32,343 nt of DNA from contig JAAELR010000299.1 of the NCBI GenBank assembly GCA_024226455.1, positions 1-32,343 of the forward strand, read 5' to 3'. Position numbers and translations under genes: made by a program. The notes beneath the pieces were generated by a model. That model did not search any database. It saw only the letters and a list, made by a program, of their open reading frames with translations, and was not told where the DNA came from. The stretch comes from Paracoccaceae bacterium (GTDB lineage Bacteria; Pseudomonadota; Alphaproteobacteria; Rhodobacterales; Rhodobacteraceae). This document shows, one piece after another, positions 600 through 27,701 of the stretch (positions are counted from its first letter, which is position 1; each line of letters opens with the position of its first letter).

Positions 600-2153
600 A
601 TGACGTTTGACATGCTCTCACTTGCGCAGGCGGCCTGGATCTTGCTTGCCGGGGTCGCCGTCGCATTCGCGGCGCTCTGGCTGGTGACGCGGCACACGCA
701 GTGGCGGGCCGGGTCCTGCGCCGCCTCTGACCAGCCTGACATTGCCTTTCTGTTCCGGGCGGGCGAACTGGTCGATGCCTCCGACGCCGCCTGGAGGCTT
801 TTCGATTTCACCGAACCGGACGGTAGCGACCTCGACCGCATTGCCTGCCTTCTGGCACCACGCTTCGCCGGGCTGGCAGAGCATCTTGGCACCGGAACCC
901 AAGAAGCCAAACTGGCCTCGCAGGACGGCCGGTCCCGGCTTTGCCTGGCCGCTGAACGGGGCAACCTTCGCATCACCTTGCGCGACCTTGCCCCGCTCAA
1001 GGCAGGACCGTCACTCGACCGGCACAGCCTTGCCGTGCTGGCCGACGAGCTGACGATGCTTCGCAGGCTCTGCGGCAATGCACCCTACCCGGTTTGGCGC
1101 CAGGACGCCGATGGGCAGGTGACCTGGTGCAACACCGAATGCCGCGCACTCGGCGCTTGCCTGCACTCCGGTAAATCCACGTCCGCCCCGCAACGGTCTA
1201 TCTTCGCCGACGAGCCGGCGCCCGGAGACGGGCCCGGCGTTCGCCGCGTGTCACTGAACCTGCCGAACGAGGCAGAGCCCCGATGGTTCGAACTGCAAAC
1301 CGACCGGATCGCCGATGACCTGCTGGTCACCGCGCTGCCGGCCGACAGGATCGTGCGCGCAGAGCGCAGCCTTTCCGATTTCATCCAGACCCTGACGCAG
1401 ACTTTCGCCCATCTCAATGTCGGGCTGGCGGTGTTCGGACGCAACCGTGAACTGGCTGTGTTCAACCCCGCGCTGACCGATCTGCTGGGCCTGCAGCCAG
1501 AGTACCTGATCTCCCGTCCGACGTTGTTCCAGGTCTTCGACCGCCTGCGCGAGCGGCGCATGGTGCCCGAGACCAAGGATTACAAATCCTGGCGCCGGCG
1601 CATGACCGCGCTAGAGGTCGCGGCTGCCGACGGTGCCTACTCGGAAACCTGGAGCCTGGTCGACGGCCGCACCTTCCGCGTCACCGGCCGGCCGCACCCA
1701 GAGGGCGCGGTGGCGTTCCTGTTCGAGGACATCAGCGCCGAGATCTCGCTGGAACGCAAGTTTCGCGCCAAGCTGCAACTCGAGCGGGCGGTGATCGACA
1801 GTGTCGAAGAGGCCATCGCCGTCTTCACTCCGCCGGGCAGACTGGCCCTGTCGAACCGGGCCTACGCAGCGCTGTGGCAGATCGAGGCAGCGGGCCAGGA
1901 AGCCGAGCCGAATTTCATCGAAGCCTCGCGCATCTGGCAGAAACACAGCGTTCCGACGCCGGTCTGGGGCGATGCGCGTGATTTCTCGGCAACGATCAGC
2001 GAAAGGTCGAACTGGACCGCCGATGTGCGCTTGCGCGATGGTCGGACCCTGTGCTGCCGGTTCGATGCCTTGCCGGGCGGCTTTACGTTGGCAGGGTTCT
2101 CGGAACCGCTCACCCTGGCCCTTCCGGCGCCGTCCAAATCGCTCAGCGCTTAG
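600..2153 (+). CDS. Membrane-anchored PAS-domain signalling protein
   Basis: This 517-residue protein starts with a short periplasmic stub and one membrane helix (about residues 9-28, [17 protein letters not shown]). The rest is cytoplasmic and carries PAS-like repeats, clearest at about 265-375 ([21 protein letters not shown] ... [18 protein letters not shown]) and 395-500 ([29 protein letters not shown]). The connector [14 protein letters not shown] is the usual PAS-to-helix junction. No kinase, GGDEF, EAL or HTH domain follows, so it is a PAS-only sensor or scaffold. The GGCGGG just before the ATG can serve as ribosome site. It follows the RegB-like kinase in the same direction, behind a full CtrA box. 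Its ligand and partner are unknown. Confidence 0.75.
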
Positions 2154-2221
2154 GCGGCACGGGTGTTTATCTTGCCGGTGGGCTCCTGTATGACGCGCTC
2201 CATTGCCTTCGGAGACGCCAG

Positions 2222-3403
2222 ATGCCGGCCACCACACCGATCACCCAGGATGTCCGTGCCATCCCGCGCAACCTGCCCGAGGACGGGCGGGCGAACCTTG
2301 TCGGCCAGACCCGCAAGTGCCTGCTCGAAACGCTGATTGCCGCCGGTACGCCGGAAAGACAGGCCAGGATGCGCGTCGGCCAGATCTGGCAATGGATCTA
2401 CCACTGGGGTGCGCGCGATTTTGCGGCGATGACCAATCTGGCCAAGGACTACCGCGCCATGCTGGCCGACCGGTTCGAGATCGCCGTGCCCGAACTTGTC
2501 AGCCGTCACGTCTCGGACGACGGCACCCGGAAATACCTGGTACGCATCGCCGGCGGACATGAGGTCGAGGTGGTCTATATACCCGAAACCGACCGCGGCA
2601 CGCTGTGCATCTCGTCTCAGGTCGGCTGCACGCTGACCTGTTCCTTCTGCCACACCGGCACCCAGAAACTGGTGCGCAACCTGACCGCCGGCGAAATCGT
2701 CGGTCAGATCATGCTGGCCCGCGACGATCTGAACGAATGGCCCGAGCCGGGCGAGGGCACGGGCGCCCGTCCCCGCCTGATCTCGAATATCGTGCTGATG
2801 GGCATGGGAGAGCCGCTCTACAATTTCGACGCGGTGCGCGACGCGATGCAGATCGCCATGGATGGCGAGGGCATCTCTCTGTCGCGCCGCCGCATCACCC
2901 TGTCGACCAGCGGCGTGGTGCCCGAAATCGCCCGCACCGCCGAGGAAATCGGCTGCCTTCTGGCGGTCAGCTTTCACGCCACAACCGACGAGGTTCGCAA
3001 CCGGCTGGTGCCGATCAACAAGCGCTGGAACATCGCCGAATTGCTGGATGCCCTGCGCGCCTATCCGAAACTCAGCAACTCTGAGAGGATCACCTTCGAA
3101 TACGTGATGCTGAAAGGCGTCAACGACAGCGACCAGGACGCCCGGCGGCTGGTGAAGCTGATCCAGGGCATCCCCGCCAAGATCAACCTGATCCCGTTCA
3201 ACGAATGGCCCGGTGCGCCTTATCTGCGCTCTGACCGGGAACGGATCGAGGCCTTCGCCCACATCGTCTACCAGGCCGGCTATGCCAGCCCCATCCGTAC
3301 CCCGCGTGGCGAGGACATCATGGCCGCCTGCGGCCAATTGAAATCGGCCACCGAACGGGGGCGAAGATCGAATGCGCAGATAGCGGCGCAAAGCCGGTCT
3401 TAA
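2222..3403 (+). CDS. rlmN: RlmN, 23S rRNA A2503 / tRNA A37 C2-methyltransferase
   Basis: RlmN is a radical-SAM enzyme that methylates C2 of A2503 in 23S rRNA and of A37 in some tRNAs. The protein has 393 residues from the ATG at 2222. The frame is open further upstream, but that part overlaps the PAS gene and does not look like RlmN. The cluster-binding CxxxCxxC is C136-C140-C143 (GCTLTCSFC), followed by [11 protein letters not shown]. Other marks are [23 protein letters not shown] and LNPFN-type LIPFNEWPG. The second essential cysteine, which becomes the methyl carrier, is C370 in AACGQL. All catalytic residues are present and the length is normal. The stop codon forms part of a CtrA-like half box before the next gene. 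Confidence 0.96.
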
Positions 3404-3438: not shown

Positions 3439-3831
3439 ATGAAACGAGAGATCGACCTGGCTCCGGCCACATGGGCGGCGTTATCGCAGGTTTCCTCCGC
3501 AGAGGGCACGGCCATCGATGCGCTTGTCGCCGATGCGGTCCACCGAGACCTGTATCGCCGAACCCGAGCGAGGAAGGCCGAAAGGCCTGATGAGCGGCTC
3601 ATCGCCGATGACTTCGCTTTCTCGTCGACGTGGGAGGATCTGCAGGCCAGGCTTGACGCCAAAGGCTACTGGCTGATGAAATCCGGGGCCGGGCTGGCGG
3701 TTTGCGACAAGAGCAATGGATGCCGGGTCTGCAAGGCCTCCGACCTGGGCAACAGCCATGCTCGCCTGGCCCGCAAGCTTGGTACCGCCTTTCCCGGACA
3801 CACCCATCCGCAGGCCATCGGTGCTGTCTAG
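3439..3831 (+). CDS. Small protein with relaxase-like C-terminal motif
   Basis: This 130-residue protein is soluble, with no signal peptide or membrane segment. The N-terminal part (about 1-35, MKREIDLAPATWAALSQVSS) could be a short helical dimerisation or ribbon-helix-helix-like unit. The C-terminal part (about 56-125) has WEDLQARLDAKGYWL, GAGLAVCD, CKASDLG and FPGHTHP. From memory this order resembles the tail module of some alphaproteobacterial relaxase/MobA-like proteins, but no relaxase catalytic motif is present. Codons around 3568-3603 contain a sequence like the right half of the dispersed palindromic repeat, read as RKAERPDERLIA. The stop overlaps the stop of the convergent LOG gene in the tetranucleotide CTAG. 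Function unknown. Confidence 0.65.
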   Translation: MKREIDLAPATWAALSQVSSAEGTAIDALVADAVHRDLYRRTRARKAERPDERLIADDFAFSSTWEDLQARLDAKGYWLMKSGAGLAVCDKSNGCRVCKASDLGNSHARLARKLGTAFPGHTHPQAIGAV

Positions 3832-4637
3832 CCGGCCCATCCATCGATTGCCGCCAGCGCCTCTTCAGCCGTCTCGACAAAACGGAAAAGCTCCAGATCG
3901 CTCTCGGATATCGTTCCGGCATCCGCCAGCGCCTCCCAGTTGACGATACCGCGCCAGAATGCCTCGCCAAACAGGATCACCGGGATCGCCTGCATCTTTC
4001 TCGTTTGGATCAGGGTCAGCGTTTCAAACAGTTCATCCAGTGTGCCAAATCCGCCCGGAAAGCCCACCACGGCCCGCGCCCGCAGCAGGAAATGCATCTT
4101 TCGGATGCCGAAATAGTGGAAGTTGAAACACAAGTCAGGCGTCACGAATTCGTTCGGCGCCTGCTCGTGCGGAAGCACTATATTCAGCCCGATCGACACG
4201 CCACCGGCCTCTGCCGCACCGCGGTTGCCGGCCTCCATCACTCCCGGTCCCCCGCCGGTGACGATGACATTCTCGCGGTCGTTGCCGAGATTGCTCTCTG
4301 TCACCATTCGGGCAAAGCGTCGCGCCTCGTCATAGTACCGGCTCAGCTCTGCCAATGTCTCAGTCCGCGCGCCCGCCCTGGCCTCGGGCCGAGGGATACG
4401 CGAGCCGCCGAACAGAACGATGGTCGATTTTACCCCGTATTCGGCCTGCAGCATTTCGGGCTTCAGCAGCTCCAGTTGCAGCCGCACCGGGCGCAGTTCA
4501 TCCCGGCACAGGAATTCCGCGTCGTTGAATGCCAGCCGGTAGGCCGACGCTCGCGTCTGGGCCGTATCGGGAATGTCCTGCCAGGTCTCGATATCCTGGT
4601 GGGCGTCCGGAAAGGGGGCGATGCGGTCGTCTTTCAT
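3828..4637 (-). CDS. LOG-family (TIGR00730-type) Rossmann-fold protein
   Basis: The 269-residue protein carries the LOG signature: TGGGPGVMEAGNRGA at about 127-141 and PGGFGTLDELFE at about 194-205. These bind the nucleotide phosphate and hold the catalytic residues. Characterised LOG proteins are 5'-phosphoribohydrolases that release bases from nucleoside monophosphates (cytokinin activation in plants and some bacteria; purine nucleotide turnover elsewhere). The family was once mislabelled lysine decarboxylase. The N-terminal 65 residues are an extra helical extension seen in longer bacterial members. The substrate cannot be read from sequence. It is divergently transcribed from the dehydratase gene across a 77-bp gap. 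Confidence 0.88.
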   Translation of the reverse strand: MKDDRIAPFPDAHQDIETWQDIPDTAQTRASAYRLAFNDAEFLCRDELRPVRLQLELLKPEMLQAEYGVKSTIVLFGGSRIPRPEARAGARTETLAELSRYYDEARRFARMVTESNLGNDRENVIVTGGGPGVMEAGNRGAAEAGGVSIGLNIVLPHEQAPNEFVTPDLCFNFHYFGIRKMHFLLRARAVVGFPGGFGTLDELFETLTLIQTRKMQAIPVILFGEAFWRGIVNWEALADAGTISESDLELFRFVETAEEALAAIDGWAG

Positions 4638-6545: not shown

Positions 6546-6581
6546 CCGGAGGGGCCGCTCATCGGTCCCTCCGGCCCCTTT
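6546..6581 (+). terminator. Terminator-like hairpin after dapD
   Basis: A perfect 8-bp stem (CCGGAGGG at 6546-6553 with CCCTCCGG at 6567-6574) encloses a 13-nt loop and is followed by CCCCTTTT. It lies 8 bp after the dapD stop. The loop carries the left arm (CCGCTCATCGG) of palindromic repeat copy A, so terminator and repeat are interlaced. Confidence 0.55.
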
Positions 6582-6645
6582 TCGCGCGGCCCGGCGTTCG
6601 GGCGCGACGGTCGCGAGAAGAGCCCGGAAGGGCTCGACAAGCGCC
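6553..6645 (+). repeat. Dispersed palindromic repeat, copy A
   Basis: This copy lies between the convergent ends of dapD and the lipoprotein gene. The left arm is CCGCTCATCGG (6555-6565). The right half has the inner hairpin GAGCCC-GGAA-GGGCTC (6620-6635) and the right arm CGACAAGCGCC. The outer arm pairing is imperfect here, while the inner stem of 6 bp is perfect with a GGAA loop. Confidence 0.7.
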
Positions 6646-13687: not shown

Positions 13688-13774
13688 GGCCGCTCATCGC
13701 GCGCTTCGCAGCGCTCCTCGCTGAAAACCGGGCGCGACGGCAGCGAGGAAAGCCCGGCAGGGCTTGATGAGCGC
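13688..13774 (+). repeat. Dispersed palindromic repeat, copy B (most complete)
   Basis: Three nested stems are visible. The outer arms CGCTCATC (13691-13698) and GATGAGCG (13766-13773) pair perfectly. Inside, CCTCGCTG (13716-13723) pairs with CAGCGAGG (13741-13748), and AAGCCC pairs with GGGCTT around GGCA (13750-13765). The result is a possible three-way junction in RNA or a cruciform in DNA. The right arm contains the ATG of the next gene. Confidence 0.8.
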
Positions 13775-16705: not shown

Positions 16706-16784
16706 CCCGGCGCTCATAGCTCGCCTTGTTTCACTCCTCGCGGGGCGGCAGCGAAGAAAGCCCGGGAAGGGCTTGATGAGCGCC
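16706..16784 (+). repeat. Dispersed palindromic repeat, copy C
   Basis: Outer arms GGCGCTCAT (16709-16717) and ATGAGCGCC (16776-16784) pair perfectly over 9 bp. The inner hairpin is AAGCCC-GGGAA-GGGCTT (16758-16774). The middle stem is weakened (CTCCTCGC against GCAGCGAAG). The copy starts immediately after the rnr stop and has the same orientation as copy B. Confidence 0.75.
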
Positions 16785-27159: not shown

Positions 27160-27226
27160 ACCGCTCATCGGCCCTCGCGGGGCTCTCCTCGCTGGCGAGA
27201 AGCGCCCGGAAGGGCGCGACGAGCCC
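27160..27226 (+). repeat. Dispersed palindromic repeat, copy D (short form)
   Basis: Left arm CCGCTCATCG (27161-27170), a shortened middle stem CTCGC-TG-GCGAG (27188-27199), and an inner hairpin GCGCCC-GGAA-GGGCGC (27202-27217), then the right arm CGACGAGCCCC. Compared with copies B and C the inner stem changes A-T pairs to G-C and C-G while keeping all six pairs. The copy abuts the rlmH stop codon and is opposite in orientation to the genes on both sides. Confidence 0.75.
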
Positions 27227-27230
27227 CTGG

Positions 27231-27701
27231 TCAGGCACGGTGATATGGCGAACCGGCCAGGATCGACACTGCGCGGTAGATCTGTTCGGCCAGCATCACC
27301 CGGGCCAGCATGTGCGGCCAGACCATCGGCCCGAAGCTCAGGCACAGGTCGGCCCGGGCCCGCAGGGCCGGGTCGAGCCCGTCGGCGCCGCCGATCACAA
27401 ACGCCACGTCAGCGCAGCCGGTGTCGCGCCAATCCGCCAGCCGTTTGGAAAAATCCGGGGAGGACATCAGCTTGCCGCGCTCGTCCAGCGCCACCACCCG
27501 GGCGCCCTTGGGCACCGCTCGGCTCAACAGCGCCGCCTCGGCGCCCATGCCGCCGCCCTTACGATCCTCGACCTCGGTCACATTGACCGGCCCCAGCCCC
27601 CGGCTGCGTCCGGCCTTGCTGGCCCGGCCCAGATAGTCGTCGATCAGCGCGCGCTCCGGTCCGGCGCGCAGCCGACCCACCGCACAGATATGCAGCCGCA
27701 T
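27231..27701 (-). CDS. rlmH: RlmH, 23S rRNA pseudouridine-1915 N3-methyltransferase
   Basis: RlmH is a SPOUT methyltransferase that modifies helix 69 of 23S rRNA in assembled 70S ribosomes. From ATG 27701 (MRLHICAVGRLRAGPE) the product is 156 residues, the normal length. The SAM knot is seen as FVIGGADGLDPALR and SFGPMVWPHMLARVMLAEQIYRA, and the essential C-terminal Tyr-His-Arg is present in SPYHRA. It follows rsfS on the same strand by 44 bp, the standard arrangement. Confidence 0.95.
   Translation of the reverse strand: MRLHICAVGRLRAGPERALIDDYLGRASKAGRSRGLGPVNVTEVEDRKGGGMGAEAALLSRAVPKGARVVALDERGKLMSSPDFSKRLADWRDTGCADVAFVIGGADGLDPALRARADLCLSFGPMVWPHMLARVMLAEQIYRAVSILAGSPYHRA

Follow-up and report, generated by a model that had tools for sequence, protein, structure and literature searches.

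Palindromic repeats of the REP and RPE types that have inserted in frame into genes are often regarded as selfish decorations. The Rickettsia palindromic elements (RPE) are the classic case of in-frame repeats, as presented in the portions of PMC10969869 and PMC3767692 on which we draw. REPs within open reading frames (ORFs) are known in many species, including one in the DnaE of Rickettsia conorii, and CGTC repeats, found in every order of the alpha division, seem to have no dedicated transposase (text of PMC3733652). Rhodobacter, Roseobacter, Ruegeria, Paracoccus, Silicibacter, Dinoroseobacter, and Jannaschia are not named in that text; the figures and additional files of the paper stand outside it, so the repeat family of the Rhodobacteraceae could be in them. 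A search of titles and the beginnings of abstracts returned nothing on the unit described here in Rhodobacteraceae, nor on its host gene family together with REPs.

Here we analysed a window of 32,343 nt, the stretch from position 1 to 32,343 of contig JAAELR010000299.1 (Paracoccaceae bacterium, assembly GCA_024226455.1, forward strand), in which a 130-residue gene (3439..3831, plus strand) contains a repeat unit within its coding sequence. The explanation that we consider best overall, with a probability of roughly 0.7, is that the gene family has an ancestral copy of two inverted units that has been held as DNA, that the window lineage has lost seven codons of it, and that the same repeat family enters genes in frame elsewhere. 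In one gene family, and over many genera, the in-frame unit would be not only translated but also kept as DNA.

The unit in the 130-residue gene and its repeat family

The unit, U, has the form GCGARGA-hairpin-GATGAGCG, and rcU is its reverse complement. In the 130-residue gene, U occupies 3568..3596 on the plus strand and its parts can be read directly: GCGAGGA (3568-3574), the stem AGGCC (3575-3579), the loop GAAA (3580-3583), the stem GGCCT (3584-3588), and GATGAGCG (3589-3596), translated as ARKAERPDER. The original prediction of a half-copy of the intergenic repeat at 3568-3604 proved to be real. The parts follow one another as they do in the right half of the intergenic repeats (13743-13773 and 16751-16782), and the resemblance is far beyond chance: in the source genome, 71 sites match GCGAGGA-N8-24-GATGAGCG (38 on the plus strand and 33 on the minus strand) versus 0 for the reversed control. 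The in-frame reading is also as predicted, with U and the following bases (3568-3603) translating as ARKAERPDERLIA in the frame of the ORF 3439-3831. Directly 3' of U lies GCTCATC (3597-3603), part of the rcU remnant GCTCATCGC (3597..3605, plus strand), which pairs with 3589-3595. This is the second hairpin that had been proposed, GATGAGC-G-GCTCATC. It is indeed present; more precisely, it spans the point where U meets the opening bases of an inverted second unit, one that relatives possess whole.

The source genome is a 4.36-Mb draft in 487 contigs. The middles of its 71 copies differ in sequence and in most cases form pairs. Counted from the flanks, uninterrupted pairing extends over 4-6 bp in 41 copies and over 0-3 bp in the other 30, which have a mismatch inside (20 of these stems break after the second pair), and 8 of the 71 are longer units of 36-37 nt. 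The unit thus measures 29-37 nt and the dimer about 60-90 nt. A hairpin-aware model scored the window U at 35.6 bits (E=2.2e-6, 33 sources searched). Copies in this and other genomes lie mostly outside genes, with few within them, and frequently form the arrangement rcU-spacer-U. Among 187 copies from six genomes, 105 stand with a partner in the orientation that puts the GCGARGA ends inside, and 17 with one in the orientation that puts the GATGAGCG ends inside; control windows 400-500 nt away yielded 5 partners. In the 130-residue gene, the dimer order is reversed relative to this prevailing arrangement, as it is the GATGAGCG ends that lie inside.

Four dimers of the rcU-spacer-U type are present in the window. 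An intergenic one at 6556..6643 (6556-6585 minus, 6613-6643 plus) has partly decayed flanks, and another intergenic one at 16711..16782 (16711-16741 minus, 16751-16782 plus) has a decayed left unit. The dimer at 13691..13773 (13691-13721 minus, 13743-13773 plus) was taken as intergenic, with an ORF that has a TTG start at 13764 overlapping its last 10 bases. The dimer at 27162..27225 (27162-27192 minus, 27195-27225 plus) was taken as lying upstream of a minus-strand gene, the start position of which is only assumed, since the longest ORF (start at 27345) covers the dimer. Two sets of pattern matches were set aside as chance: the 13 of genome G302, which showed no hairpin by eye, and a match within a gene of the window's own genome (L101), which is without a stem. 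In another genome (G107, contig C151:35-1029), five copies of U occur in 1 kb, spaced alternately by 435 and 48 nt; either the repeat is part of a tandem array there or the assembly is at fault.

The host gene and the history of its copy

The product of the 130-residue gene is predicted to consist of a weak N-terminal ribbon-helix-helix (RHH), the stretch coded by U, and a TraI-middle-like C-terminal domain. The TraI_middle profile (PF22863) gave 23.9 bits on the window protein, the Pfam cut-off being 27.6; among the five homologues scanned, L049 reached 30.6 bits, above the cut-off, and the other four gave 14.6-22.1. The RHH_4 profile gave 14.3 bits versus a cut-off of 25 on the window protein, and RHH_1 gave 32.1 bits versus a cut-off of 20.5 on the homologue L052, with the other homologues scanned falling below their cut-offs. 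The window protein gave no match to a relaxase catalytic domain. Its predicted structure, based on a two-row alignment, has a mean pLDDT of 69, and a Foldseek search against the PDB returned nothing at E<=0.001 and only weak resemblances to RHH proteins of the CopG and MatP kind. Three of the homologues scanned bear U; it encodes residues 44-53 or 45-54 in them, and their TraI_middle matches start at residues 54, 55, and 54. As these matches begin at profile position 15-16 of 89, the domain may extend back into U. The rcU half overlaps sequence common to relaxases and may be partly native.

Homologues of the window protein were found in 74 of 394 Rhodobacteraceae genera at E<=1e-3, and no plasmid homologues were found at 1e-5. 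The search within its own genus returned only the window's own genome, and the named close relatives have one homologue locus (CANMTR010000010.1, uncultured Rhodobacteraceae bacterium). The neighbouring genes are, presumably, an RlmN-like gene upstream (2051..3403, plus strand) and a LOG-family-like gene downstream (3828..4637, minus strand), names that rest on sequence motifs. Over about 1.5 kb on each side of each locus (6 kb for L109), the RlmN-like gene is found beside 9 and the LOG-like gene beside 6 of the 31 other homologue loci; 5 of the 9 loci with the RlmN-like gene upstream also have the LOG-like gene downstream.

In an alignment of 31 homologues, one per genus, U is kept at the same place and in the same frame in 23, usually followed by the inverted second unit. 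These labels were assigned by eye and allow flank changes (as in L055); L062 and L063, where the hairpin is kept and the flanks are changed, were labelled as having no U. A typical homologue reads GCGAAGA-CGCCC-GTCA-GGGCG-GATGAGCG, and the rcU that follows U in L052 reads GCTCGTC-GCGCCC-TTGC-GGGCGC-TCCTCGC. U is found in every part of the homologue tree, and the end branches of the 8 rows that lack it are longer than the median. The U label needs 8 changes on the tree, a number that shuffled labels matched in 500 of 500 cases, and only 5 of the 28 inner branches are firm; a single origin is therefore read from the shared position and not from the tree. The simplest reading of this shared position and frame is that U was present in the ancestor and was lost repeatedly. 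The linker has nearly the same length in homologues without U (L012, L061, L064, L070, and L074), so that the original insertion event is not visible. The syntenic L064 is without U although its genome has 36 pattern matches.

The window protein lacks 7 residues just after DERLI (I55), which are kept by the nearest homologue (G151) and by the named relative (L109). As a result of this 7-codon deletion most of rcU is gone, and the remaining GCTCATC forms the second hairpin with GATGAGC. Compared with these relatives, the peculiarity of the window copy is a loss, of seven codons of the second unit, and not a gain. The original prediction had expected orthologues to show an insertion of about 10-14 residues here or in a few species only. 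This expectation fails, because 23 of 31 homologues keep U and there is no net insertion compared to the homologues that do not have it. Its other suggestion, that the end of the gene arose from intergenic DNA, is rejected, as U lies in the middle of the gene, between two domains that are recognisable in homologues. An orthologue that keeps the same residues in a genome free of the repeat had been named as the refuting case, and G035 provides half of it: its residues are kept, but so is the DNA of the repeat. The only exact pattern match in the genome of G035 is in this gene; a looser hairpin model gave 4 matches, presumably including the in-gene U and rcU.

Codon use and stem pairing both indicate that more than the protein has been conserved. 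In 154 codon columns and 30 of the 31 rows (L061 was dropped), we measured how strongly codon choice deviates from the usage pooled over these genes. The 19 columns of U and rcU had a mean of 1.30 versus 0.49 in the 135 others (Mann-Whitney p=1.5e-7, a figure that is indicative and overstated, since the rows share history), and the strongest columns were AGG, in 19 of 27 Arg codons, and TTG, in 18 of 27 Leu codons. For the stems we used 20 of the 30 non-window homologues, picked by their flank pattern and not by the hairpin. Pairing reached 99% in helix 1 (U) and 80% in helix 2 (rcU), versus 32-54% for slides. Changes on both sides were seen in 7 of 11 stem pairs, with paired variants such as CGCCC/GGGCG, CGTCC/GGACG, and CGACC/GGTCG, and the covariation score was reached by 0 of 500 shuffles, again to be read as indicative in view of the shared history. 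One pair of helix 2 forms in 9 of the 20 rows only. We consider it shown, as far as alignments of this kind can show it, that U and rcU in the gene are held as DNA and not only as protein.

Copies in other genes and the number of repeats

The broader idea of the original prediction, that the family enters genes in frame, is borne out by a whole dimer in DnaE and by a U in the C-terminal tail of Pth. In the genome of the window (G000, contig C29), the dnaE gene has the dimer in frame at L023:1449-1529, where the protein reads ...DARMG-DAHQPLRASSLGDAGDTAAKKAERLDER-PSIPFVNLFDF.... The replicative polymerase has this dimer in its catalytic subunit; the repeat has entered such essential genes without breaking them or shifting the frame. 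We searched 34 genera and obtained dnaE loci from 30. The dimer is present in 3 of these, with 30 extra residues in G000, 25 in G151, and 19 in a variant in G020, and 23 of the 30 have no insert there beyond a few residues. This pattern is that of in-frame entry into a pre-existing gene, as is typical of RPEs. Between G000 and G151 one stem changes from AGCCC/GGGCT to AGACT/AGTCT; the encoded residues differ and the pairing is kept. The insert is absent from the two solved polymerase chains that were inspected in alignment; in the other seven matched chains, the best stretch stops at query residues 76-81, just before the insert. Inserts of other kinds occupy this position in four more genera (G396, G119, G230, and G050); the one in G396 may be a dimer that has decayed. 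With its dimers and other inserts, this site is an insertion hot spot; in G050 (L305), it has about 68 extra residues, in which another GC-rich repeat occurs twice.

The U of the Pth tail lies in the same frame in two genera (L002:1501-1529 and L125:2092-2120), with a likely decayed third (L116). It reads QARKAERPDER in G000 and QAKTPVRADER in G119, looks decayed in G280, is uncertain in G341, and was not seen in the other 24 of the 28 tails read (29 genera searched). The Pth tail of G302 (L131) is expanded by repeated units that contain SGES. Further in-frame copies, judged by sequence alone, lie in what we take to be an AccD-like tail (G119), an E2-like linker (G230), and a LysE-like protein (G147), names that rest on the sequences; for the last of these, no solved relative was found. 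Copies in RsmE (G147) and in a 3-hydroxyisobutyryl-CoA-hydrolase-like gene (G341) were rejected as insertions, as the net gain compared to solved relatives is a few residues at most. A codon model flagged 62 reading frames among 237 copies and left the window gene unflagged; many of the 62 are short or antisense and look spurious, and only in-frame copies in recognisable proteins were retained.

Most repeat-rich genera have the gene family. With a covariance model of U and strict filters, under which the richest genomes have at least 18 matches each, at least 4 matches were found in 25 of the 394 genera. A homologue of the window protein is present in 20 of these 25 versus 74 of 394 overall (Fisher p=7e-12, taking genera as independent and with no tree correction). 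When the two in-gene matches are subtracted, 15 of 20 repeat-rich genera have a homologue (p=3e-8, on the same assumption). All 10 genera with at least 10 matches have one. When only the 48 stronger homologues are counted, these fractions are 19 of 25 and 9 of 10; the homologue that makes the difference is that of G230, which has a stop inside its match. No homologue was detected in five repeat-rich genera: G205 and G259 (71% and 75% complete), G337, G367, and G382. Conversely, the repeat is scarce or absent in many genera that have a homologue: 54 of the 74 have fewer than 4 model matches.

Readings of the in-gene unit and comparison with known systems

We propose that the Rhodobacteraceae have a REP-like family of palindromic repeats, of which U is one unit. 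The pair U.rcU (about 59 nt) would have been acquired early in the gene family, as an ancestral copy and not a new insertion, and would be translated as the joint between the RHH and TraI-middle-like domains. The DNA of U would since have been held as DNA, with biased synonymous codons and stems changing in pairs. In the window lineage, an in-frame deletion of seven codons would have removed most of rcU and left U with the palindrome GATGAGC/GCTCATC, and elsewhere the repeat family enters genes at tolerant places, such as the DnaE loop and the Pth tail, with the frame intact. We infer that the unit acts as a folded single strand, be it DNA during copying or mRNA, and that the gene keeps U because this hairpin serves the gene as a cis-element, in the simplest case as the target of the gene's own product.

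It is conceivable that the RHH-TraI-middle protein is the trans-acting partner of these transposase-less REPs. It would bind folded U, the in-gene U.rcU would be its target or autoregulatory site, and its presence would permit multiplication and in-frame entry. We put this forward tentatively, and think it unlikely to hold in full. As a partner of the repeat, the protein is an unproven candidate: a putative DNA-binding protein whose gene's presence tracks repeat-rich genomes. CGTC-type repeats seem to be without a transposase (text of PMC3733652), and a relaxase-related protein that embeds the repeat in its gene offers a testable candidate for a partner.

Alternatively, the hairpin may be an mRNA element that serves in attenuation, stability, or translation pausing and is unlinked to a DNA-acting protein. 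The conservation of the stems fits RNA as well as single-stranded DNA. However, an Rfam scan of the window at gathering thresholds matched no family, and the location of the unit, mostly outside genes, suits DNA as well as RNA. We regard an mRNA element as possible, if on balance not probable. A hammerhead or other known RNA, considered for the motif CTGATGAG...GAAA, was rejected on the same scan.

Another explanation is that gene conversion or re-insertion from other copies, and not selection on the gene, keeps the in-gene U uniform. The 29 letters of the window U occur once more among the 71 genome matches, in the pth gene, and when the 7 upstream bases are counted, of which 6 are shared, 35 of 36 letters are identical. 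The in-gene unit of G150 is likewise identical to two other copies of its genome, which tells against strictly vertical descent, and G366 has many copies and none in its homologue. What makes conversion doubtful are the cases of G102 and G035. Among the 28 copies read in G102, the 5-bp stem CGCCC/GGGCG stands directly between the flanks in none but the in-gene copy, yet this stem is common to the in-gene homologues of several other genera, and G035 keeps U though its one exact match is the in-gene one.

It is very improbable that the gene is the source from which the genome-wide repeats were copied. Such an origin would fit the presence of the gene in 20 of 25 repeat-rich genera, and G035 with its in-gene copy and few others, but the order of the units within a dimer is not the same in the gene as outside it, and the five genera with at least 4 model matches have no detected homologue, two of them being incomplete assemblies. 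Little credence can be given to a resemblance at the protein level only, in which a linker AK..R.DERL is conserved and its codons are repeat-like by chance. The residues are indeed conserved and the linker length is nearly constant even without U. Against chance, the codon string of U has a probability of 2.8e-6 under local codon use given the residues ARKAERPDE, with AGG, which makes up 6.5% of Arg codons, occurring twice; AGG and TTG prevail at single positions across genera, the stems change in pairs, and the 29 letters are identical to a copy in another gene. The least credible is a recent in-frame insertion into the window gene, which in the form first suggested is refuted: despite the dimer in DnaE and the identical 29-mer in pth of the same genome, 23 of 31 homologues have U where the window gene has it and in the same frame, and the window protein is 7 residues shorter, not longer, than those of G151 and L109.

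The family stands near several described systems. Its many dispersed, mostly intergenic copies, often in dimers, are those of a general REP-like palindromic repeat. It resembles the CGTC- and GTAG-tagged REPs, as described in the text of PMC3733652, in its short palindromic units with unpaired ends, its frequent dimers, and its mostly intergenic location, and some of those REPs also lie wholly within ORFs, with the encoded residues listed and DNA-synthesis genes included. It differs from them in having stems mostly of 4-6 bp instead of 8-9 bp, a length found in none of the 71 own copies, and ends of GCGARGA and GATGAGCG instead of CGTC and CCA. Set beside the unpaired terminal CGTC (or TGTC, CCTC) of the CGTC-tagged REPs, the stem-adjacent end of U gives CATC when read inward, but the search pattern itself required GATGAGCG; variants with GACGAGC occur at 27195-27225 of the window and in L072. 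In place of the CCA tail, the other end has GCGARGA/TYCTCGC, which the search pattern partly fixed. Like the REPs mobilised by RAYTs, U is a hairpin with conserved unpaired flanks and forms dimers. The transposase domain PF01797 (Y1_Tnp) was matched in 2 of the 17 genomes searched, both times partially and once with an internal stop, so there is no general partner of the RAYT type, and a RAYT was rejected as mobiliser of the U family.

The relaxosome accessory protein PcfF (PMC6514445) similarly has an RHH DNA-binding fold tied to relaxase function, the RHH of the window protein being weak; unlike the relaxase context of PcfF-type proteins, the window protein matched no relaxase catalytic domain. 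Like the RPEs, the U family enters unrelated genes in frame; compared by description in the portions of PMC10969869 and PMC3767692 used here, RPEs are about 100-150 bp long and belong to obligate intracellular hosts, whereas U has 29-37 nt and belongs to a high-GC family. In the parts of PMC3733652 covered here, we saw no counterpart to a translated dimer that a single gene family has retained across genera under constraint at the DNA level. The U family is REP-like, is RPE-like in behaviour, and is kept apart from the CGTC and RAYT families.
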